This document shows, piece after piece, positions 14,001 to 60,996 of a DNA stretch of 64,000 nt (the stretch's first letter is position 1; each line of letters begins with the position of its first letter). The DNA is from Siniperca chuatsi (lineage: Eukaryota; Chordata; Actinopteri; Centrarchiformes; Sinipercidae). The notes under the pieces were generated by a model that was given only the letters and a program-made list of their open reading frames with translations, searched no databases and had not been told where the DNA came from. The stretch spans positions 1,067,128 through 1,131,127 of the forward strand of contig NC_058046.1 in assembly GCF_020085105.1 (NCBI RefSeq), in the 5' to 3' direction. Position numbers and translations under genes: made by a program.

Positions 14001-17000
14001 CTGGTCTGTTTGTAGTTTTACAGTCAAACACTCAGCAGCTCGTCGGTGTGACTGAAAATAAAACCGAGGGAGGAACTGCGGATTAGTTTAACTCAGTCGG
14101 TCAATGGAAGCTCATTAACACCAGGAAAAGATAAAAACTGATGAAGAGTTAGGAATGATACGGTGTAGTCCCTCATTCGTCCAGGAGTGTTCTTTCGTAG
14201 AAAAGGTTTCAGTCGTAGTCATCTGGACGCTGTTTTCAGAATCAAGACATTTCGGCTCCCATCCGGAAGTCATTCTCAATTGTGAAAATGGTCTGAGAAC
14301 TCAGAAATTTAAGCTACTCTGTGTTGCTTAAGCCCTGCCCTCAGGGAGGAGTCTACCTGAGTGTCTGTTTACCTGCCTAGTTTCACCTGAAACTGACCTA
14401 ATTGTTTCCATGATGGCCCAGTAATCAGTAATCAGGCCTATTGTTCTCTGGCTGCACCTCCCTCATCACTGTTAAGTACCTGATTAGCATGTGATTGGCT
14501 TGACCACGGTGTTAATACACTGTGGTAAACTTTGGGCAGATTGAATCTCAGACCACCATTTCTGTTCAAAGAGGGGTTTTCTTTTTTTACAGAAATGGCT
14601 TCTTTGACGCCCCGTTCAAACCAACTCTTCTCTCTACTTAGAATCTCCACCTCGCTGTCTTCAAATATGTGTCCTTATGTATCTGGACTGTCTGAAAAAC
14701 TACAAAGGATCTTTAGACAGCACGATGTTCCTGTTTTCTTTAAACCAGGCAACACTTTAAGACAGAAACTCGTTCACCCTAAGGACAAGATGCCCACACA
14801 GAAACAGAGCAATGTAGTTTACTCCATTCAGTGCAGTGAGGAAAACTGCAAAGAACGGTACACAGGTGAGACCAAACAGCCACTTCATAAAAGACTTTAT
14901 CAGCACAGACGACACGCTAACTCAGGATTGCAGAGCGCTGTGCGTTTGCATCTAAAAGCTACAAACCGCACATTTGAAGACAGCGAGGTGGAGATTCTAA
15001 GTAGAGAGAAGAGTTGGTTTGAAAGAGGAGTCAAAGAAGCCATTTTTGTGAAAAAAGAAAACCCCTCTTTGAACAGAAATGGTGGTCTGAGATTCAACTT
15101 GCCCAAAGTTTACCACAGTGTATTAACACCGTGGTCAAGCCAATCATATGCTAATCAGGTACTTTACAGTGATGAGGGAGGTGCAGCCAGAAAACAATAG
15201 GCCTGATTACTGGGCCATCATGGAAACAATGAGGTCAGTTTCAGGTGAAACTAGCTAATCAACAGATACTCAGGTAGACTCCTCCCTGAGGGCGGGGCTT
15301 AAGCAACACAGAGTAGCTTAAATTTCTGAGTTCCCAGACCATTTTTTACAATTGAGAATGACTTCCGGATGGGAGCCGAAACGTCTTGATTCTGAAAACA
15401 TTGTCCAGACGACTGCGACTGAAACCTTTTCTACGATAAGTTAGGAATGATTAAAATAAAAAGTATCAAAGCTATGAGATACAAAGTCAAAATTATTAAA
15501 TACTAAGCATTTAATAATTTTGACTAATAATTATGAATAATTTAATTAATAATTTAAGAAAATACGAAGTCAATCAAGGCAATATTTACTGTACTTGTGA
15601 ACCGACCCCCACACATTTGTAACTCTAACTTTAACAGAAAGACCATATAGTGTTATCATTAATGTATAATATAACATGGATCCATGGCTGCACTGTAGCC
15701 AAAAATAAATAGCATTGCAGTCAGCTTGTAAGCAGCAATCCAAACTGTTCAATAAAGATAAATAAAATACAGGAAAGGTTTATCTGTAGTAATGTATTTT
15801 TGCCACAAGGTGTCACTAGTGACTTAGATTAGAAATCCACAAAATCCACTCACTGTCATTCAATGGGGTGATATAGGATGAAAGAGTGCTCTGGTGTGTA
15901 AATAAGTGTACAGAATATTTCAGTCGGTTATGAAAATATTGTCATTGTGGATCTGTTTCATGAAACTCTTCTGTTGTGGTCTGAACATATATTACATATA
16001 ATCAGTATTTATCAGTTCATTCATTAAACTTTGCTCCTTGTATTTGACAGTGACCATACATGACATGTACATTATAACTTCCCTGTTTGAGGTTATTTAT
16101 TTTACACTCACGTTGTGTAAATCCCTCTCTTCCTTTTAATTATTTGATCTTACTGTCGCAGCACTTCTGAAGTCAAGATTCTAACTTTGTAAATCAAGAT
16201 TATGATAATAAGTCAAAACTGTGACGTTCCAAGTTATAATTATTTGACTTTTAATTATTATTTGACTTAAGTCATCTTTTTAAGATGGATTTTGACTTCT
16301 CATGTCATAATTATGACCCAGTAAGTCAAACATTTTAATTATGAGATGATAAGTTACAGCTTTTATTTACAAAAATAAAAATGATGAGATAATAAATCAA
16401 GATTCGGACTTTCTAAGAGACCTACTGAATCAAAAGTGTGAAATAGCAAGTCACATTATTCGACTATCACACGAGTGTTTTTATTTTTGTCATTCCCAGC
16501 ATTGCTGACATACAGTCAGATGAGATGTGTCGAGTACAGAGAGAGGCCCAGGAAGTGTTTAGCCTAGCTTAGCACAAACACTGGAAGCAGGGGGAAACTG
16601 TTAGCCCAGTCCACCTTCCCACAACTCAAAGTCTGTCAGATTAACATAAAATTAAATCCATCTGAAACATCCGACTAGGTCGGATTGTTCCTTTTAAATT
16701 TTGGCAAAATTATTCACATTTTCTCTTGCAGACAGTTACTGCACCAAACAGTTCTCCTACCAGGAGCAGAAGCTGCAGCGCCTCTGTGTGGGCGAACAGT
16801 GTCAGTGTATGACAGGTAAGGTCTTCCTCTGCCTTTTGATTGGCTGAGATCAGCTGTCACTCACATCGCTGCAGCCTCCCTTCATCAGCAGCTGCTGGCT
16901 GATGTCACGTGGCGTCACATGTCGTGTGCTTTTTCTGTTGTATCCGTCATACGTTGAATATATTGTAAAAGTTGAAACTAGAAATGATATGTTGTTGTTG

Positions 17001-21811: not shown

Positions 21812-24800
21812 ATGTCTGGTCCAGAGGAGGAGCAGAGGGCGTCAGGAGAAGGTGCAGACCCCCAAGAGAACAGAGGAGGTAGAGGAGGACACCTGCACAC
21901 AAAGCTTTAATACCGCACTACACGCCTTAATCGCTACTCCTCCTCTCCTCTCAGGTATCAGGTATATAACAGAGAAGCTGTTGTTGAAGCTGACTGGTTG
22001 TCAGTCTCTGGCTCTGGTCCGTTCTCTGAATCTGTCGTCCTCAACTGGAGACAAACATATCAAGGTGAGAACAAACTGATACTGCAAGTAGCACAGCGGA
22101 TACACCTGTTACTACTGCTATTACTGCTGCTTCTGCTAGTGGTGACATTATTAATACTGCTGCCACAGGGTCCGCTGAGACCTGCTACCGCTGCTACTGC
22201 TAGTACCACCGCCGTTACTAGTGCTATTATTACTTCTGGTGGAGCTGGGCGTTTATCAGTTTTTTGGTGTGCGTTTCAGTTCATAGAGAACCTTCATGGC
22301 TGTCAGCGTCTGCAGGTTTTAAACTTGAACCACAACGGGATCCAGAGGATGGAGAGACTGAACGCGCTGACACAGCTGAGAGAGCTGCAGCTGGCCCACA
22401 ACAACATCCAGTGAGACTCACTCACACTCACTTTACAGTATACTGCATTACGGGCTTCACCTCCTCAAAAGTGTAACTAACGAACAACTGAGAAAATATC
22501 ATTAACCTTCAGGAACAAAGAGCAGAGGCACTATTTCACGCAGCATTATATTTGGCGTGGCTATTTGTTTAGCCCGTCAAACAAAACTTCATGAGACCAG
22601 ATGCGTCAGGATCTGAGTGGCACACCGCCTCGACAAAACAGTCTCGTGGTGGAAACCCTCCGCAGATCTAACAAACGCATCTCCACTGCAAACTGTCTGC
22701 TTTCTGCAGCGGCCGCTCTTAATCACAGCGAATAAAAGAAGATAAACAGCATTCCTGCAGCTATTAATGACGGCAGGACCGTAGTCTCCTACGATACGGC
22801 CCGCAGTACACCATGAAGCAGAAACGTACACCCAGCTTCAACTGTCAAGGTCACCCTCAGAGTGACGCAAGATTTTACCTCAACGATCGGATGGATTGTC
22901 ATGACACTTGGTTCAGACGTTCGTGGTCTTCAGAGAGGGTGAATGTGGCGATCCTGACGTTTTCTCTCGTGGAACCAAAATGTCCCCTTGCCCAACTCTT
23001 CAGTTCATGCCAGGATACGTCTAAAACTAGGGGCTGAAAAGCCGTGAGCAGCAGTCTTGTTTGTGTTAGTCATGAAATTACAGAAAGAAGCCCCCCCCCG
23101 TCAGGTAAATGTGTAATGTGTAACTTGCTGCCGTTTATGTGTGTGTATGTGTTTGTTTGTAGGAGGATTGAGGGACTGGAGCTCATGTCCAGTCTGCAGC
23201 ATCTGAACTTGTCCTTCAACAGGATCGACCACGTCCCCGTGTGGCTGGGGAAGAAACTGCACTCACTGCGCACGCTCCACCTGCAACACAACCTCATCGC
23301 ATCCGTGAGTGCAGGCTGTGTGTGCGTTTAGCGTTTTGTAAAAACTCAGAAGGCTTTTTGTTTCCTGACACTGTGACGCGCTGCACTGATGATTTACCGT
23401 GAAGTGAGCGTATGATGTGAGCGATCAATCACCTGCTGAGCTGAATTAGACAGATCCTGACGCCTCTCATCTGGTTATCGCTGTAGTTACTAGGTGACGG
23501 TTTGAACAGTCATCCCACTCAATAAATGTGCCCATATCTGTGCGATGTAGCCCCGCTGCTCGCTTAATAAGACTAATATTATATTTCGTAAAACTGTAAT
23601 CATTTCTTCTGATGTTGGTAATTTTGCTTGATAAATGACTTAAACGATTGATTGATGATCAGAAAACAGGGTTTCAGTTATCGCTGTATCCCTGTGTGTG
23701 CGCGCGTGTGCTTGCAGCTGTACGAGGTGTCCAGACTGCGTTCTCTGAGTAGCCTATCAGAGCTTTCCGTGTCAGGAAACCCCGCCTCCTCACTGCAGCA
23801 CTCCCGCCTCTTCCTGCTCTACCACATCAGGACTCTGGACAGGCTGGATGACCTGCCAATCACCCAGGAGGAGAGAGGACACGCCCACCAACGCTTCAAC
23901 GCCGGTACATCATTTCATATCATACAAACACGCAAGAACACTTAAATCTCTGACGTAACAGTGGGACGGTAGTTTGATTTTACAGACACAAACGCTGTTG
24001 TTTTTATTGTTGTTGTTTGCAACCAGAGGAGCTGGAGCGTCTGCAGCAGGAGGTGGACGGCAGCCAATCACAGCTGAGCAGGCTGCGGAGGGAGCAGCTG
24101 GCCGCAGTGACCCGACTCCACCAGCAGGAGGAGACAAACCGAACACTGACGGCTCAGACAGAAACACAACGACACGCACACACACTGCTGGAGCAAGAGC
24201 TGCACATCAAGAGTCAGCTGGTAGGACACACACACACACACACACTGTATATATAACTTGGCTTTGATCCAGTAGTGGGACAGATTGACCTCCTGAGGGA
24301 GAAGGTGTTTGACCTTTGACCTCTAAAGTCCTCCTGTCTGCCTCTCTTCTTCTTCTCTGTCGTTTCCTGCAGCTGTTCTACAGAGCTGTTCTGTTTTCTT
24401 CTTCTCCTTCCGTCGTTTCCTCTCTGCTGAAGGTAGAGGCACAAACACTGCTCACTGTGGAAACATCGCAGGGAGGGACACTCCCATCGATCAGGCACTG
24501 ATATTTATCACAAGTGGCTAATTGATGACGTTTAAATGTACCAGACTGAAAAGACAAAATAATTAGTTTATGTTCCTGCCTGCCTCTGGGTGGCGCTGTT
24601 GATCTTAATCTTTGTGCTGATACAGTCTACTGAACACTGAGGTTCTGTGTTAGTGTGTACATTTTCTAAAGTAAAAGCAGCACTGAGCTAGAGGCAAGTG
24701 ATTTGGATAAAATCCAAGTTTATGTAATTTTCTATTGCAATATCGACATATATATTGTAACATGATACATTTTCTGAAAATTTAACTGAGAGACCATTTA

Positions 24801-27554: not shown

Positions 27555-29949
27555 GCATTATATATATAACTTCGTCCTTCACCCTCAGCGGGTGGTCTCA
27601 TCCTTCGAGCTCGGGTCCTCTACCAGAGGCCTGGGAGCTTGAGGGTTCTGCGCAGTATCTTTGCTGTTCCCAGTACTGCACTCTTCTGGACCGAGATGTC
27701 TGGTGTTCTTCCAGGGATCTGCTGTAGCCACTCCTCCAGTTTGGGGGTCACTGCCCCGAGTGCTCCGATGACCACGGGTACCACTGTTGCCTTCACCTTC
27801 CAGGCCTTCTCCAGCTCTTCTCTGAGCCCTTGGTACTTCTCTAATTTCTCATGTTCCTTTTTCCTGATGTTGCCATCACTTGGTATCGCCACGTCAACCA
27901 CAACGGCTTTCCTCTGCTGTTTGTCAACCACCACGATGTCAGGCTGGTTCGCCATTACCATTCTGTCAGTCTGGATCTGGCTCGGTCCCACAGGATCTTG
28001 GCTCGGTCATTCTCTACCACCTTTGGAGGTGTTTCCCACTTTGACCTCGGGGTTTCCAGTCCATACTCAGTGCAGATGTTCCTGTACACTATGCCAGCTA
28101 CTTGGTTATGGCGCTCCATGTATGCTTTTCCTGCCAGCATCTTACACCCTGCAGTTATGTGCTGGATTGTCTCAGGGGCCTCTTTGCACAGCCTACACCT
28201 TGGGTCTTGTCTGGTGTGGTAGATCTGGGCCTCTATTGCTCTGGTGCTCAGGGCCTGCTCCTGTGCAGCCATGATGAGTGCCTCTGTGCTGTCCTTCAAT
28301 CCAGCCCATTCTAGCCATTGGTAGGACTTCTTGATATCGGCCACTTCAGTTATGTTCCGGTGGTACATCCCGTGTAGGGGTTTGTCCTCCCATGATGGTC
28401 CTTCCTCCAGCACGTCTTCCTCTGTTCCCCATTGCCTGAGACATTCCCTGAGCACGTCATCTGTTGGGGCCTTATCTTGGATGTACTTGTGGATCTTGGA
28501 TGTTTCATCCTGGATAGTGGCTCTCACACTCACTAGTCCACGGCCGCCTTCCTTACGGCTAGCGTACAATCTCAGGGTGCTGGATTTGGGATGGAACCCT
28601 CCATGCATGGTGAGGAGCTTTCGCGTCTTAACGTCTGTGGTCTGTATCTCTTCCTTTGGCCACCTTATTATTCCCGCAGGGTATCTGATCACTGGCAGGG
28701 CGTAGCTGTTTATTGCCCGGGCCTTGTTTTTGCCATTGAGCGGACTTCTTAGGACTTGCCTTACTCGTTGGAGGTATTTGGCCGTTGCCGTCTTCCTTGT
28801 TGCCTCTTCGAGGTTGCCATTTGCCTGTGGTATTCCAAGGTACTTGTAACCGTCCTCAATGTCTGCTATTGTTCCTTCTGGGAGTGAGACCCCTTCTGTG
28901 TGGACTACCTTCCCTCTCTTTGTCACCATTCGACTGCACTTCTCAAGCCCGAATGACATCCAAATGTCAGAGCTGTAGATCCTGGTGGTGTGGATCAGTG
29001 AGTCGATGTCCCGCTCGCTCTTAGCGTATAGCTTGATGTCATCCATGTAGAGGAGGTGACTGATGGTGGCCCCGTTCCTGAGTCGGTATCCATAGCCATA
29101 GTCTTGTTGATTATTTGGCTGAGGGGGTTCAGTCCTATGCAGAACAGCAGTGGGGACAGAGCGTCTCCTTGGTATATGCCACATTTGATGGATACTTGTG
29201 CAAGTGGCTTGCCATTGGCCTCAAGGGTGGTTTTCCACAGCCTCATCGAGTTCGCAGTGAAGTCTCTTAGAGTCCTGTTGATGTTGTACATCTTTAAGCA
29301 TTCAGTGATCCATGTGTGCGGCATTGAGTCATATGCTTTCTTGTAATCAATCCAGGCAGTGCACAGGTTGGTGTGTCGGGCTCTGCAGTCTTGGGTGACT
29401 GTTCTGTCAACCAGGAGTTGGTGTTTGGCTCCTCTGGTTCCTCTACCAATGCCCTTCTGCGCTTTGCTCATGTATTGATCCATGTGTCCACTTATCTTCG
29501 CCGCGATGATGCCTGACATGAGCTTCCATGTTGTGGAGAGACAGGTTATTGGCCGATAGTTGGATGGGACTGTACCCTTTGCGGGATCCTTCAGGATCAG
29601 GATTGTGCGCCTTCCTTCGGTAAGCCATTCAGGGTGCGTCCCATCTCTTAGCAGCTGGTTCATTTGTGCTGCTAGGCGCTCATGGAGTGCAGTGAGCTTC
29701 TTTAGCCAGTAGGTGTGGATCCTGTCAGGGCCCGGTGCTGTCCAGTTCTTCATACCTGAGACTCTTTCTTGGATGTCTGCCGCTGTGATGGTGACTGGAT
29801 TCTGTTCAGGGAGGTTGCTGTGGTCATCTCTCAGAGCCACCAGCCACTGTGCATCGCTGTTGTGTGATGCCTCCTTTCCCATATACTTTTCCAGTACTGT
29901 TCCGTTTCCAGCCTTGGTGGGTATGCTCTGCTGTTATTACCCTGCCATT
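27555..29949 (-). mobile_element. R4-like (Rex6-type) non-LTR retrotransposon with REL endonuclease, 5' truncated
   Basis: The minus strand, read through three frames, gives reverse-transcriptase motifs: NWTAPGPDRIHTYWLKKL, NYRPITCLSTTWKL, motif A WIDYKKAYDSMPH (about 29330-29370), motif B YQGDALSPLLF (about 29150-29180) and motif C HLLYMDDIKLYAK (about 29025-29060). Downstream is a CX2C-X8-H-X4-C knuckle (CRLC...HITAGC, about 28140-28205), then a PD-(D/E)XK-like endonuclease (PDIVVVD ... VVVDVAIPSD, about 27880-27945). That order is the R2/R4 architecture; YMDD and the overall wording point to the R4/Rex6 clade. Frameshifts fall near 29120 and 27970. The N-terminal part is missing, so it is inactive. 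Confidence 0.85.
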
Positions 29950-30097
29950 GCCACCTCGTCTGTTGTCGCCTGCGGTTTACGGTAAACGTCCGATCCAGGT
30001 CACTTTGCAGGGTGTTTTGCGTAGGCCTGGAAAGTCTGGAAAGGCATGGCGTGGAGGCGGGGGGACTGGGCGCGTTAAGCACTTGTCTTTCTTCACA

Positions 30098-30170
30098 GGG
30101 GAATTAGCTCAAATGGTAGAGCGCTCGCTTAGCATGCGAGAGGTAGCGGGATCGACGCCCGCATTCTCCA
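30098..30170 (+). tRNA. tRNA-Ala(AGC)
   Basis: A 73-nt cloverleaf: acceptor ggggaat/attctcc with one G-T wobble, A box tagctcaaatggtaga, anticodon loop ttagcat (AGC) in a 5-bp stem ctcgc/gcgag, and T arm gcggg-atcgacg-cccgc, with discriminator A. It matches the canonical vertebrate tRNA-Ala(AGC) pattern and looks functional. The downstream plus strand lacks a clear T4 terminator immediately after the gene; the nearest T-run is weak (gtttcgtttg). Confidence 0.9.
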
Positions 30171-31110: not shown

Positions 31111-31192
31111 CGACGAGGATGGGATTCGAACCCACGCGTGCAGAGCACAATGGATTAGCAGTCCATCGCCTTAACCACTCGGCCACCTCGTC
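31111..31192 (-). tRNA. tRNA-Ser(GCT)
   Basis: An 82-nt cloverleaf on the minus strand: acceptor gacgagg/cctcgtc, D arm with ggccgagtggttaag, anticodon arm tggactgctaatcca (GCT), long variable arm ttgtgctctgcacg, and T loop gttcgaatc. The discriminator is G, as expected for serine. It looks intact. Confidence 0.92.
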
Positions 31193-31329
31193 TGTTGTCG
31201 CCTGCGGTTTACGGTAAACGTCCGATCCAGGTCACTTTGCAGGGTGTTTTGCGTAGGCCTGGAAAGTCTGGAAAGGCATGGCGTGGAGGCGGGGGGACTG
31301 GGCGCGTTAAGCACTTGTCTTTCTTCACA

Positions 31330-31400
31330 GGGGAATTAGCTCAAATGGTAGAGCGCTCGCTTAGCATGCGAGAGGTAGCGGGATCGACGCCCGCATTCTC
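31330..31400 (+). tRNA. tRNA-Ala(AGC), second copy, cut by the assembly gap
   Basis: It is identical to the copy at 30098 for 71 of 73 nt; the last two bases fall in the run of N. It is part of the 1,232-bp tandem unit. Confidence 0.88.
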
Positions 31401-31500
31401 NNNNNNNNNNNNNNNNNNNNNNNNNNNNNNNNNNNNNNNNNNNNNNNNNNNNNNNNNNNNNNNNNNNNNNNNNNNNNNNNNNNNNNNNNNNNNNNNNNNN
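31401..31500. other. Assembly gap (100 N)
   Basis: Exactly 100 N, the conventional placeholder for a gap of unknown size. It breaks a tandem tRNA array and lies where the central part of CNTRL should be. Confidence 0.99.
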
Positions 31501-40100: not shown

Positions 40101-40229
40101 CCTTCAACTGTTCCTTTACACCCTTCAACTATTTCTGGAACCCAACTTACTACCTCCATTTCCCACACTTTCCAAACCCCTTCAACTATTCTACCCAACT
40201 ATTTGCAAACCGCACTTACACACATTTCA
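37200..40229 (+). repeat. Unit 1 of the ISG15 array, heavily corrupted
   Basis: Islands matching the clean units occur in the right order: a degraded caactattt satellite (37.2-38.1 kb), the SINE body (38225-38255 against 42185-42215), the post-SINE flank with aaaaaatgtttttaa (38289-38303), the intron end of ISG15 (39098-39125, taaaatttcaatgaacttca against taaaaatgtattgaatgatc), traces of ISG15 coding sequence (39125-39300), the 3' flank (39520-39660) and the pre-satellite block (39780-39930, with acatggcggagttaacagga). Differences are dense and include many indels, equally in genic and repeat parts. No intact ORF survives. Confidence 0.7.
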
Positions 40230-41716
40230 ACTATCTCTAACCCTTTATCTATTTACAGAACGCACGCTTCAACTATCTCTGACGCTTCAACTATTTACAG
40301 TACACACATTTCAACTATCTCTAACCCTTTATCTATTTACAGAACGCACGCTTCAACTGTCTCTGACGCTTCAACTATTTACAGTACACATTTCAACTAT
40401 CTGACCCTTCATCTATTTACAGAACACACACTTCAACTATCTCTGACGCTTCAACTGTTTACAGAACGCACACTTCAACTATCTCTGACCTTTACAACAT
40501 TTCCAACTAACTCTGACCCTTCATACAGTACACATTTCAACTATCTCTGACCCTTCATCTATTTACAGAACACACACTTCAACTATCTCTGACGCTTCAA
40601 CTATTTCCAGTGCACACACTTCAACTATCTCTGACGCTTCAACTGTTTACAGAACGCACACTTCAACTGTCTGACGCTTCAACTATTTACAGCACACACA
40701 CACACTTCAACTATCTGACCCTTCAACTATTTACAGTACACATTTCAACTAACTCTGATGCTTCAACTATTTACAGTACACACATTTCAACTATCTGACG
40801 CTTCAACTGTTTACAGAGCACACACTTCAACTATCTCTGACGCTTCAACTATCTCTGACCATCTATTTACAGAACTCACATTTCAACTATCTCTGACGCT
40901 TCAACTATTTACAGAACTCACATTTCAACTATCTCTGACGCTTCAACTATTTACAGAACTCACATTTCAACTATCTCTGACGCTTCAACTATTTCCAGTG
41001 CACACACTTCAACTATCTCTGACGCTTCAACTATCTCTGACCATCTATTTACAGAACGCACACTTCAACTATCTCTGACCCTTCATCTATTTACATAATA
41101 CACGCTTCAACTATATTTGACGCTTCAACTATTTACAGTGCACACACTTCAACTATCTCTGACGCTTCAACTGTTTCCAGTAAACACATTTCAACTATCT
41201 CTGACCCTTCATCTATTTACAGTACACACACTTCAACTTCATCTATTTACAGACGCTTCAACTGTTTACAGCTTCAACTGTTTACAGAACGCACACTTCA
41301 ACTGTCTAACGCTTCAACTATTTACAGCGCACACACACACTTCAACTATCTCTGACCCTTCATCTATTTACAACGCACACTTCAACTATCTCTGACGCTT
41401 CAACTATTTACAGTACATACATTTCAACTATCTCTGACCCTTCATCTATTTACAGAACACACGCTTCAACTATTTCCAGTGCACACACTTCAACTATCTC
41501 TGATGCTTCAACTGTTTACAGAACGCACACTTCAACTATCTCTGACGCTTCAACTATTTACAGTACACATTTCAACTATCTCTGACCCTTCATCTATTTA
41601 CAGAACATACATTTCAACTATCTCTGACGCTTCAACTATTTACAGAGCACACACTTCAGCTATCTCTGATGCTTCAACTATTTCCAGTGCACACTTCAAC
41701 TTAAACAACTACTTCC
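40230..41716 (+). repeat. 42-bp satellite, block 1
   Basis: Tandem copies of a 42-bp monomer made of two related halves: cttcaactatctctgacg and cttcaactatttacagaaca plus cac. The variable junction after ctatttacag is aacacaca, tacacaca, agcacaca or tgcacaca. Because 42 is divisible by three, the plus strand stays open for long stretches in more than one frame (14-residue repeats such as QLSLTLQLFTEHTL or STISDASTIYRTHT); I treat these as artefacts. Quality is poor before about 40230. Confidence 0.9.
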
Positions 41717-43270: not shown

Positions 43271-43738
43271 ATGGAGATAACCGTCACGATGCTGGGTGGG
43301 ACGTCCCACACACTGACTGTGTCCCCACAGGACACAGTGGGCTCTTTGAAAACCTCATCCAGAAGAAACTACGAGTTCCCCTTCAGGACCAGAAGCTGGT
43401 CTTTGTCAGCGGCCAGAATACAACTCTCAGCGATGACTCAAAGACTGTCAGCGAATCACGACTTACAGTCTGGCTCCCAGGTGTCTCTGTTGGTGACCCA
43501 GCCGGCTACCATCCAGGTGTTCCTCAAAAACGACAAGGGGACGAGCAGTGTCTATGACATCAAACCCGCGAGACTGTGACAGACTTCACGCAGAAGGTCG
43601 GGTCCAGAGAGAAGGTGCCGGTGAGCCAGCTGTATCTGGTTCCACGAAGGCAAACAGATGACGGAGGGTAAGCTGTCCGACTACGACGTCAAAGCGGGGA
43701 GCACCATCTACATGTGTCTCCGTCTGAGAGGAGGCTGA
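43271..43738 (+). pseudogene. isg15: ISG15 copy 2 with several frameshifts
   Basis: It is homologous along its full length to the intact copy at 48268. Four single-base indels relative to it are visible: one A lost in the A-run near 43350, one base gained at gaatcacgactt (about 43454), one lost at cccgcgagact (about 43567), and one gained at ggttccacgaa (about 43640). The final codons still read LRLRGG then TGA. The second exon begins at 43259. Indels cluster partly in homopolymers, so sequencing error in this repetitive region is as likely as true pseudogenisation. Confidence 0.8.
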
Positions 43739-48267: not shown

Positions 48268-48735
48268 ATGGAGATAACCGTCACGATGCTGGGTGGGACG
48301 TCCCACACACTGACTGTGTCCCCACAGGACACAGTGGGCTCTTTGAAAAACCTCATCCAGAAGAAACTACGAGTTCCCCTTCAGGACCAGAAGCTGGTCT
48401 TTGTCAGCGGCCAGAATACAACTCTCAGCGATGACTCAAAGACTGTCAGCGAATACGGCTTACAGTCTGGCTCCCAGGTGTCTCTGTTGGTGACCCAGCC
48501 GGCTACCATCCAGGTGTTCCTCAAAAACGACAAGGGGACGAGCAGTGTCTATGACATCAAACCCGACGAGACTGTGACAGACTTCACGCAGAAGGTCGGG
48601 TCCAGAGAGAAGGTGCCGGTGAGCCAGCTGTATCTGGTTCACGAAGGCAAACAGATGACGGAGGGTAAGCTGTCCGACTACGACGTCAAAGCGGGGAGCA
48701 CCATCTACATGTGTCTCCGTCTGAGAGGAGGCTGA
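48268..48735 (+). CDS. isg15: ISG15, intact (copy 3 of 5)
   Basis: Interferon-stimulated ubiquitin-like modifier of 155 residues, conjugated to target proteins through its C-terminal glycine and also active free in antiviral responses. Two ubiquitin-like domains are seen (about residues 3-77, MEITVTMLGGTSHTLTV..., and 80-155, TIQVFLKNDKGTSSVYDI...), ending CLRLRGG followed directly by the stop, so no C-terminal processing is needed. The coding region lies in one exon after a short untranslated exon (ending at 48156) and a 99-bp intron, the usual ISG15 layout. A longer upstream-open frame from 48244 crosses the splice acceptor and is not used. Poly(A) signal AATAAA at 48909-48914. It sits 4,997 bp after the previous copy. 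Confidence 0.93.
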   Translation: MEITVTMLGGTSHTLTVSPQDTVGSLKNLIQKKLRVPLQDQKLVFVSGQNTTLSDDSKTVSEYGLQSGSQVSLLVTQPATIQVFLKNDKGTSSVYDIKPDETVTDFTQKVGSREKVPVSQLYLVHEGKQMTEGKLSDYDVKAGSTIYMCLRLRGG

Positions 48736-53253: not shown

Positions 53254-53722
53254 ATGGAGATAACCGTCACGATGCTGGGTGGGACGTCCCACACACTGAC
53301 TGTGGCCCCACAGGACACAGTGGGCTCTTTGAAAAACCTCATCCAGAAGAAACTACGAGTTCCCCTTCAGGACCAGAAGCTGGTCTTTGTCAGCGGCCAG
53401 AATACAACTCTCAGCGATGACTCAAAGACTGTCAGCGAATACGGCTTACAGTCTGGCTCCCAGGTGTCTCTGTTGGTGACCCAGCCGGCTACCATCCAGG
53501 TGTTCCTCAAAAACGACAAGGGGGACGAGCAGTGTCTATGACATCAAACCCGACGAGACTGTGACAGACTTCACGCAGAAGGTCGGGTCCAGAGAGAAGG
53601 TGCCGGTGAGCCAGCTGTATCTGGTTCACGAAGGCAAACAGATGACGGAGGGTAAGCTGTCCGACTACGACGTCAAAGCGGGGAGCACCATCTACATGTG
53701 TCTCCGTCTGAGAGGAGGCTGA
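53254..53722 (+). pseudogene. isg15: ISG15 copy 4 with one extra G
   Basis: It is nearly identical to the copy at 48268. The visible differences are TCC to GCC (Ser18 to Ala) and one additional G in the run at 53520-53524 (gggggacgagc in place of ggggacgagc), which shifts the frame after about residue 89. The downstream sequence, including the LRLRGG codons, is otherwise intact. A single homopolymer indel is a classic consensus error, so this may be a working gene. Confidence 0.8.
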
Positions 53723-56488: not shown

Positions 56489-56982
56489 AAAGAGTAAGAT
56501 CCTTTTTGTTTAACCAGAAAGATCGCTATAGCGCTCTCCTCAAAGCCACCAGACTCCATTGACAAAAACAATAATTTTACCTCACAGATCATCATACAGA
56601 AACAAAACAAAACTTACCAAAACCGTCTTGGTTTGTCTTTCCACTGTTCCAACAATCACCAACTCTGGTTTGGTTGAAATAAATCCTTTGGTGAGTTTTA
56701 TTTTGTTCCGTCGAGTTTGAATGAAGTGTTACGATGATCTGCGAGGTAAAATTACTGTATTTGTCAATGGAGTCTGGTGGCGATGAGGAGAGCGAGTGGC
56801 TGTTTCTGGTTAACCTTTAACGTCTCAATTTCAAAAGCAACATGAAAGTTTTCTGCTTTTAAAATTCAAAAATATTTAAAACTTTATTCACTTTCTAATT
56901 GAACAGTTTGAATGTTTTACATCAAAAAAATGTTAGTCAATGATATATAATATTATCTGAGGCAGTAAAGATGCATCATATA

Positions 56983-58730
<1,748 letters not shown>

Positions 58731-59039
58731 TATACTGTTTTAAACATGAACATGTTGCATCATATATTCCTTATTTACAGTAAGTGGTTATCAGCTGATG
58801 ATGACAGAGACAATGGTTCATCTCTGTTTCGTTTCCAAAGCAAACAAGTTTAATAAAAAATAAATGACGTGTTTGTCACAGTTCATCTGATGAAATGACT
58901 CTTGCCTTATTACAACTAAACAGTCCTGTTTTAACCTGTAATTTATACTAACAGCTGTTTCTGCTCTGCCCCACCTGTCTGACAAAACGTGGTAGTGTCA
59001 GTGATAAACAAAACATTACAAACTCTCATTAGGTTCGGA

Positions 59040-59131
59040 GAAATAGAAACCAAAAGTTATTGAGGCAGGAAGGGAAAACGAATCTAAAGCAAAGGGGGCG
59101 TGTTGATCAGCTGAGGCATCCTGTATATAAA
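59040..59131 (+). promoter_or_regulatory. isg15: Altered ISRE and TATA box, ISG15 copy 5
   Basis: The element reads gaaatagaaaccaaaag (59040-59056): the third GAAA of the other copies is AAAA. The neighbouring ggaacgg is ggaaggg. The TATA box at 59124-59131 is unchanged. The effect on interferon response is an inference. Confidence 0.8.
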
Positions 59132-59295
59132 CTCTGACACACCTGCTGCGAGCATCATCTGTTCACCTGTCGCCATCTCACAAGGTAGGAAGTTCTCTTT
59201 ATCAACGCTGCCACGAAACAAACTAAGAATTCATTTAAGGAGTTTAAAGACTTATGTAAAAAATGTATTGAATGATCTTTCAGGCCACTTTCATC

Positions 59296-59763
59296 ATGGA
59301 GATAACCGTCACGATTCAGGATGGGACGTCCCACACACTGACTGTGGCCCCACAGGACACAGTGGGCTCTTTGAAAAACCTCATCCAGGAGAAACTACAA
59401 GTTCCCCTTCAGGACCAGAAGCTGGTCTTTGTCAGCGGCCAGAATACAACTCTCAGCGACGACTCAAAGACTGTCAGCGAATACGGCTTACAGTCTGGCT
59501 CCCAGGTGTCTCTGTTGGTGACCCAGCCGGATACCATCCAGGTGTTCTTCAGAAACGACAAGGGGAAGAGCAGTGTCTATGACATCAAACCCGACAAGAC
59601 TGTGACAGACTTCACGCAGAAAGTCGGGTCCAGAGAGAAGGTGCCGGTGAACGAGCTGTATCTGGTTCACAAAGGCAAACAGATGACGGAGGGTAAGCTG
59701 TCCGACTACGACGTCAAAGCGGGGAGCACCATCTACATGTGTCTCCGTCTGAGAGGAGTCTGA
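59296..59763 (+). CDS. isg15: ISG15-like, divergent copy ending in Gly-Val (copy 5 of 5)
   Basis: An intact 155-residue frame with two ubiquitin-like domains. It ends CLRLRGV: the last codon is GTC where other copies have GGC. The terminal glycine is the residue that E1 (UBA7) activates, so conjugation would be expected to fail, leaving only free or secreted roles, unless another activity exists. By eye, 15 replacement and 2 silent changes separate it from copy 3. Replacements include M7I, L8Q, G9D, S18A, K32E and R35Q, several charge changes in domain 2 (for example VSQLYLVHEG to VNELYLVHKG), and G155V. The 3' flank (59764-60130) is practically identical to that of copy 3. AATAAA is at 59937-59942. 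Confidence 0.9.
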   Translation: MEITVTIQDGTSHTLTVAPQDTVGSLKNLIQEKLQVPLQDQKLVFVSGQNTTLSDDSKTVSEYGLQSGSQVSLLVTQPDTIQVFFRNDKGKSSVYDIKPDKTVTDFTQKVGSREKVPVNELYLVHKGKQMTEGKLSDYDVKAGSTIYMCLRLRGV

Positions 59764-60130
59764 GGTCACCGTCACATGGTTAATATATAAGAAAGTTAAT
59801 ATACCGTATTTTTATTTAATATAAAACGCAGTGTTTTATTTATTTGTATTGTTATTTCCTCCTCCATTGTTGTTTCTTCCTCCCGATTGCAAAAAACTAA
59901 ATTTGTAATAATATTATAATCTGTCAACTGTTAGCAAATAAAGTCACTAATGTGAGTTTACATGTGTCTTCGCATTTCCTCTGTGTCCTGAACAGACCAC
60001 AAACACATTTATTATGTTCTTCTGTTCTTTCAAACACTCATGTCATCTAAAAAATGTCACTGTACAGGATTGTCAATCAGAAGAGCTGCTGTACGTACTA
60101 ACTATAGTCCAGATCAGGAACAGGTGCACA

Positions 60131-60425
60131 GGTGGGAACAGGTGCACAGTCGTACAACAAACAGCCTGTTGTTTTATTTCACTTCTCACAAACATCACAA
60201 GGCCGAAAGCTGTTTCCCGCAGCTTCCTCACTGATGGAAGGAAAGAAAATAAAACTCGCAGCTGACGGCAGAAACCGACACAGGAACGCGTTCAGGTGGA
60301 AGAAACGTTACAGGTGTCGTCAGTATGGGACTCGTCATTTGTTCCATGACAGGAGTCCAGTGAAATGCACACCTGGGCAGCTACAAAGGTGACACACTTT
60401 GGCCTCTAAGGATAGTTTAGAGTGA
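60131..60425. other. Unit-5-specific insertion in the ISG15 3' flank
   Basis: Relative to units 2-4, about 300 bp is added between the gaacaggtgcacag string and the attttacacttcatcc string. It begins by duplicating ggaacaggtgcacag. No ORF, terminal repeats or known element recognised. The unit then resumes and stops at about 60995 (ctgttctgtcgttgc), without a following satellite block. Confidence 0.6.
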
Positions 60426-60996
60426 TTCGATATTTACATTTATTTTACACTTCATCCTATTAAAAGCTTTATAACGTGTTTAATATTGCATTTAATACTA
60501 AATACTACGGTAAATGGTTTGAAACATTGAGTGGCAGTAAATCATATTTAAAAGGGGCAGATTACAGTTTACATGGAGAGTTCTAAATCTAAAAATAAAA
60601 AACCAGGAGGGTTTAATGAACGATGCTATCAAGTTGCATTATGGGAAATGTAGGATCCCCGGTATGAGCGGGAAACATCTCGGCCTCTGCTTTTTTAAGT
60701 CTGTCTCCTGTGAGTCCCCCCAACTTTATGGGACAGCATCACCAAATCACTGGGGGCCCCTTTAATGAGATGATTAGCAGGGGCGGTGTGTGAGATGACC
60801 CACCTCCAGGATGCTCGTTACAAAGCAGAAACAAGCCGATCCGGTAGCGGACGTCTGACTCCACAGTCCGGCTCCACACTTCCGTCAGCTCCTGTAACAA
60901 ACAACTCGAAACAGGCAACAAGGCAAAATATCAACTACCAAAACATTCAAAAATACATGGCGGAGTTCAAACAGGGACCACTGTTCTGTCGTTGCA

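Follow-up and report, generated by a model that had tools for sequence, protein, structure and literature searches.

The 64,000-nucleotide stretch of Siniperca chuatsi DNA analysed here (the window; C5:1067128-1131127, on contig C5 of 33,325,937 bases in a genome of 718,788,923 bases) carries four tandem ISG15-like copies, c1 to c4, the last of which is an ISG15 paralogue with valine replacing the final glycine, beside conjugatable paralogues. On balance, c4 is probably a young tandem ISG15 duplicate in a secondary array, evolving under relaxed constraint, and more an ageing spare copy than a purpose-built free form.

Sequence and identity of c4

The copies in the window, with coding sequence abbreviated to CDS and "canonical" denoting three further ISG15 genes on the same contig, are:

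59296..59763, + strand: c4, ISG15-like CDS of 155 amino acids ending LRLRGV (C5:1126423-1126887 without the stop)
59758..59760, + strand: last codon of c4, GTC (Val155); c1-c3 and each of the three canonical copies have GGC
48268..48735, + strand: c2, intact sister copy ending LRLRGG (C5:1115395-1115856)
43271..43738, + strand: c1, frameshifted as assembled; last codons GGA GGC TGA
53254..53722, + strand: c3, carrying one additional G in the assembly; its final codons are GGA GGC TGA

The c4 frame is open from the ATG at 59296 through 155 codons and ends in CGT CTG AGA GGA GTC TGA (59746-59763), so that both the LRLRGV end followed by a stop and the otherwise intact frame described in the initial annotation hold, and the disabled frame of a pseudogene is not found. 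The encoded protein contains two stretches of the Pfam ubiquitin family PF00240 (100.1 bits), the tandem-domain arrangement of ISG15; an NCBIfam search gave as its sole match a weak one to Rad23, under the cut-off. For comparison, a protein database clustered at 90% identity was searched twice (107 proteins in one search, 120 listed of 345 matched in the other, 159 in all), and a quick tree was built from 152 sequences, leaving out seven of the 159 (three cut, one near-duplicate, one isoform, and two longer than 230 amino acids). Among the matches listed, the closest named relatives of c4 are fish proteins of about 155 amino acids labelled ISG15 or "polyubiquitin-like", and on the tree c4 groups with c2 (SH-aLRT 99), in keeping with a protein whose closest relatives are ISG15. 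The C-terminal LRLRGG of ISG15 is absent from c4, which reads LRLRGV there, with R151-L152-R153-G154 preserved.

A six-frame search of the whole genome, in which best candidates only were considered, gave 17 matches. The top eight represent the two ISG15 arrays, with c3 accounting for two of them as fragments; another is a further partial hit within c1, and the remaining eight, at 34% identity within long frames on C14 and C18, are probably polyubiquitin. ISG15 is present in at least seven copies on C5, four in the window as assembled and three canonical. The canonical genes (C5 at 18,434,758, 18,438,892, and 18,443,025) have identical CDS, all end in RLRGG, and encode P0003, "polyubiquitin-like [Siniperca chuatsi]". 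They stand in tandem about 4.13 kb apart (C5:18431500-18448000), 17 Mb from the window array, and the unit stretches compared are at least 99.4% identical, so that the array is either recent or a repeat introduced by the assembly. The canonical protein shares with c4 66% identity, a length of 155 amino acids, and two ubiquitin-like domains, and its gene likewise has a whole CDS in one frame and an alignable promoter with an interferon-stimulated response element (ISRE) block; it differs in its RLRGG end, compared with RLRGV, and in a promoter site, GAAANNGAAAG, that c4 lacks. Conjugatable paralogues do therefore lie alongside c4, as first proposed, and are more numerous than the window shows (c2 and the three canonical Gly-Gly genes). 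The accompanying claim that the other copies keep LRLRGG stands at the level of the codons GGA GGC TGA in c1-c3; within the window, an open frame with LRLRGG is present in c2 only.

Derived changes in the c4 protein

Val155 is derived on the c4 side, because the codon is GGC in c1-c3 and in the three canonical genes on the same contig. The CDS of c2 and c4 differ at 17 positions, 15 nonsynonymous and two synonymous including the GTC codon, with no indel in c4 relative to c2; the resulting dN of 0.043 and dS of 0.019 (NG86) fit either relaxation or selection for change. With the canonical CDS as outgroup, the changes assigned to c4 are eight nonsynonymous and one synonymous, and those assigned to c2 four and one; three nonsynonymous changes are unpolarised. 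The protein branch lengths on the quick tree are 0.089 for c4 and 0.012 for c2.

The kind of site affected was assessed at 54 conserved positions, each uniform in at least 90% of rows, the last two residues not being counted. c4 departs at seven of these (third of 152 sequences) and c2 at five (seventh), against a median of one. Five of the seven c4 departures are common to c2, and therefore divergence from the canonical gene is a feature of the whole window array; those that c4 adds are E101K, at a site that is Glu in 144 of 150 other entries, and Q120E, at a site that is Gln in all 150. c4 is thus distinguished by which sites changed, not by the count of changes. The mean log-odds of its changes is -4.1, about as harsh as that of random nonsynonymous changes (-3.6 and -3.5), whereas that of c2 is milder (-0.5); polarity in this measure comes mainly from the same residue frequencies, which biases both c4 and c2 towards harsh values.

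Outside the CDS, 34 differences separate units 4 and 2 over 2126 aligned noncoding sites (1.6%), compared with 15 over about 355 nonsynonymous sites (4.2%); the flanks exclude the transposon described below, positions 58735-58927 (with an unlike block at about 58811-58928), and 60135-60444, which unit 4 gained for the most part by an insertion. Where the canonical sequence could be aligned near the gene, five noncoding changes are derived in c4, one is derived in c2, and three are unpolarised, two of the five in c4 sitting where that alignment is poor. Positive selection on c4 was considered and is rejected as a demonstrated cause, as the excess of nonsynonymous change over the flanks is significant, that over synonymous change between c2 and c4 is not (p 0.12), and noncoding change is biased towards c4 as well.

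Promoter and transcript signals

The signals around the c4 CDS are:

59040..59051, + strand: remaining ISRE-like site, GAAATAGAAACC
59046..59056, + strand: another ISRE-like site, overlapping the first and disrupted in c4 by the derived change G-to-A at 59052; c1-c3 and the canonical promoter have GAAANNGAAAG undamaged
59068..59082, + strand: a further conserved block, reading GGAACGGAAAACGAA in c1-c3 and the canonical promoter, with a c4-derived C-to-G at 59072
59122..59132, + strand: TATA box region, preserved
59185..59283, + strand: putative 5'-UTR intron, GT donor after CACAAG and AG acceptor before GCCAC, placed by motif only
59937..59945, + strand: polyadenylation signal, AATAAAGTC

A conserved block, GTTCGGAGAAATAGAAACCGAAAGTTATTGAGGCAGGAACGGAAAACGAAT, is common to c1-c3 and the canonical promoter with few differences, and two of the five c4-derived noncoding changes (59052 and 59072) lie within it. 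Of two overlapping GAAANNGAAA sites c4 retains one, and the lost one is that also found in the canonical promoter. The initial annotation had described the promoter as retained; this applies to the TATA box, the 5'-UTR intron sites, and AATAAA, and not to the pair of GAAANNGAAA sites.

Expected consequences for conjugation

Statements taken here from published papers rest on excerpts of those papers. UBA7 adenylates the C-terminal Gly157 of ISG15 and holds the backbones of both glycines in its active site (PMC10409785), and ISG15 lacking both glycines is not conjugated (PMC12221285). Deletion of both glycines also stops the conjugation of ubiquitin; the ubiquitin mutant G76A still forms conjugates, with lower efficiency, and these are then not removable (PMC6898720). 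By analogy, conjugation of c4 is likely to be impaired, a failure of UBA7 loading is likely because valine is larger than alanine, and c4 is probably, though not certainly, non-conjugating. To call the protein non-conjugating, as was proposed at first, is reasonable as regards impairment but too strong, as ubiquitin G76A is still conjugated (PMC6898720). The engineered forms (ISG15 LRLRAA and deltaGG, ubiquitin G76A) resemble c4 in that the last two glycines are altered; they differ in being laboratory mutants, none with valine in the excerpts, whereas c4 is natural. A search for the E1_UFD family found two adjacent stretches that are not assignable to a particular E1.

The position of Q120E corresponds in the alignment to ubiquitin Gln40, where human ISG15 presumably has no glutamine. 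As a second block to conjugation this change is given little weight, as NEDD8 Q40E is still conjugated (PMC4686759).

We envisage that c4, after its split from its sisters, would have been freed from most ISG15 constraint, the final glycine then changing to valine, other conserved residues changing, and the interferon-response block of the promoter becoming partly damaged. The protein, if made, would keep the two-domain fold and the Arg-Leu-Arg-Gly stretch, but its entry into the UBA7-UBE2L6 cascade would be poor or fail altogether, since the position to be adenylated is now taken by a residue with a beta-branched side chain.

Loss of Gly-Gly among ISG15 proteins

The 159 proteins are part of the family, and all entries with an organism name are from fish. 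Among the matches listed, 156 ISG15-like entries are uncut (three are cut), and 151 of these have Gly-Gly, 13 of them with a tail behind LRGG. The five without it, a fraction that is no census of the family, are c4 (GV), P0075 from Zoarces viviparus and P0142 from Mugil cephalus (both AG), P0103 from Semicossyphus pulcher (GS), and P0105 from Cottoperca gobio (GD). On the quick tree these losses need five changes, and loss of Gly-Gly is rare but recurrent among the matches listed. For three of the five (c4, Mugil, and Cottoperca), a Gly-Gly-ended paralogue is listed on a contig of equal length, apparently the same one. A further search with the Chanos protein P0109 as query returned mostly polyubiquitins, none of which was used, and naturally occurring ISG15 genes lacking Gly-Gly were not found in the open-licence literature, as represented by titles and the starts of abstracts for part of the matches.

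At the 54 conserved sites P0105 and P0103 depart four times each and P0075 and P0142 not at all. Having no such departures, P0075 and P0142, which both end LRAG, are better candidates than c4 for a functional ISG15 without Gly-Gly. It is nonetheless rather doubtful that fish repeatedly evolve ISG15 paralogues that dispense with the usual Gly-Gly chemistry and serve as competitors or as unremovable modifiers, with c4 and the AG-ended Mugil and Zoarces proteins as examples.

Comparison with related systems

The window array is reminiscent of other teleost tandem ISG15 duplicates in that closely linked copies have diverged unequally. In Lates, ISG15A and ISG15B are tandem duplicates that both keep LRLRGG, in contrast to the LRLRGV of c4; Atlantic salmon has two ISG15 genes on chromosome 20 and four on chromosome 24, only one per region being virus-induced (PMC9680060, PMC12234341), and is compared here without C-termini. 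In mammalian OASL the tandem ubiquitin-like domains likewise do not carry LRLRGG, although these are fused to an OAS domain (PMC8764230). USP41, duplicated recently from USP18, has no deISGylating activity and is of debated pseudogene status; it resembles c4 as a young copy in this pathway with the activity missing, and differs in being a human protease (PMC12221285).

The window array and its surroundings

The array consists of four tandem units of about 5 kb each, with coding exons starting at 43271 (c1), 48268 (c2), 53254 (c3), and 59296 (c4). Each unit comprises a minisatellite, a putative 5'-UTR exon with intron sites, and a single coding exon; the fourth is longer, owing to a transposon and an insertion. 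The minisatellite often has a 42-base step (e.g. 40166-41681) and creates long chance frames. Upstream of the c4 promoter, 58811-58928 is unlike unit 3, and the sequence on both sides of it matches closely. The transposon is present in unit 4 only:

56979..58734, + strand: Tc1/Sleeping-Beauty-type transposon bounded by inverted ends, lying upstream of the ISRE-like site of c4 at a distance of about 0.3 kb

It is flanked by TA, and its transposase lies in two overlapping frames (helix-turn-helix and DDE parts).

As assembled, c1 meets a stop after 102 codons and c3 after 95. An alignment of c1-c3 over 3,096 columns holds 17 substitutions and 26 gap events, 22 of the latter being single-base and two lying at cut alignment ends. 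Because gap events outnumber substitutions, assembly error is the likelier cause: the two frameshifts are probably indel errors of the consensus, as judged from these alignments, and c1 and c3 as demonstrated pseudogenes are rejected.

Elsewhere in the window, a run of 100 N stands at 31401-31500, and the preceding 219 bases (31182-31400) are a 100% identical copy of 29950-30168, so that the gap may conceal a repeat or a mis-join. A frame at 11110-11526 matches the CUB domain of complement C5 and a frame at 23044-23328 has leucine-rich repeats, both marking neighbouring genes that may aid synteny. A GIY-YIG-domain frame (14426-15212) has both its ends within 244-base inverted arms that are 95% complementary, and fragments of a retroelement reverse transcriptase occupy two overlapping frames on the minus strand at 27955-29882.

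Weighing the readings of c4

Several observations sit uneasily with relaxed constraint on a duplicate. The c4 frame is intact, and the TATA box, intron sites, AATAAA, and one ISRE-like site are retained. As a plain count, the excess of change on the c4 side is not significant, whether polarity comes from residue frequencies (10 vs 5, p 0.30) or from the canonical outgroup (8 vs 4 nonsynonymous). c2 is itself loosely constrained, with five of 54 departures and, relative to the canonical gene, a dN of 0.23 and a dS of 0.33. Lastly, nonsynonymous change exceeds that in the noncoding flanks (Fisher p 0.003), which is not expected of plain decay. Even so, a young duplicate under relaxed constraint is the reading that we consider probable.

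An error of assembly or base calling at the last codon would remove the question altogether, and the many indel differences in neighbouring copies do resemble consensus errors. GTC, however, is a substitution and not an indel, the c4 CDS has no indel relative to c2, and no other copy in the window has T at this place, so that a mix-up of copies would not create the codon. An error at this single base is unlikely, such an explanation overall is highly improbable, and the natural GV-ended c4 is a real sequence variant. The sizes published for two other assemblies of the species, 753,983,610 bases (SMRT reads combined with a linkage map; PMC7247394) and 750.13 Mbp (PacBio reads; PMC12119445), differ from the 718,788,923 bases of this genome. 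If c4 is instead a functional free ISG15-like competitor or decoy, it would dock on UBA7, USP18, or viral de-ISGylases by its kept surface and not be passed on. The open frame, R151-L152-R153-G154, the retained ISRE-like site, and protein change faster than the flanks are consistent with this role, for which mammalian OASL, with tandem ubiquitin-like domains lacking LRLRGG, is a precedent (PMC8764230), but c4 has changed at highly conserved ISG15 sites and in a conserved promoter block. A search for GV-ended ISG15 in related species had been suggested as a check, and none besides c4 occurs among the 159 proteins listed. We regard a competitor as unlikely, though less so than the other alternatives to relaxed constraint.

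Two further roles are improbable, and about equally so. As a slow, irreversible modifier, c4 would be loaded poorly by UBA7 and resist USP18 once attached, much as the G76A isopeptide is more resistant to deubiquitinases (PMC5298413); those data, however, concern alanine on ubiquitin, valine is bulkier and beta-branched, and losing both glycines blocks the conjugation of ubiquitin and ISG15 (PMC6898720, PMC12221285). A cytokine-like free ISG15, the role floated in the initial annotation, has a parallel in tongue sole, where ISG15 is released and is active unconjugated, but one test in that fish disfavours it: changing LRGG to LAAG left no apparent effect on the respiratory burst and a much reduced effect on nitric oxide (PMC3445607), in a mutant that also alters an arginine which c4 keeps.

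The conjugated and free roles of ISG15 are hard to separate in animals, and a natural paralogue without the conjugation end, beside intact copies, would make the free role testable without mutants. Even as a decaying duplicate, c4 suggests that redundancy within an array permits the loss of Gly-Gly.
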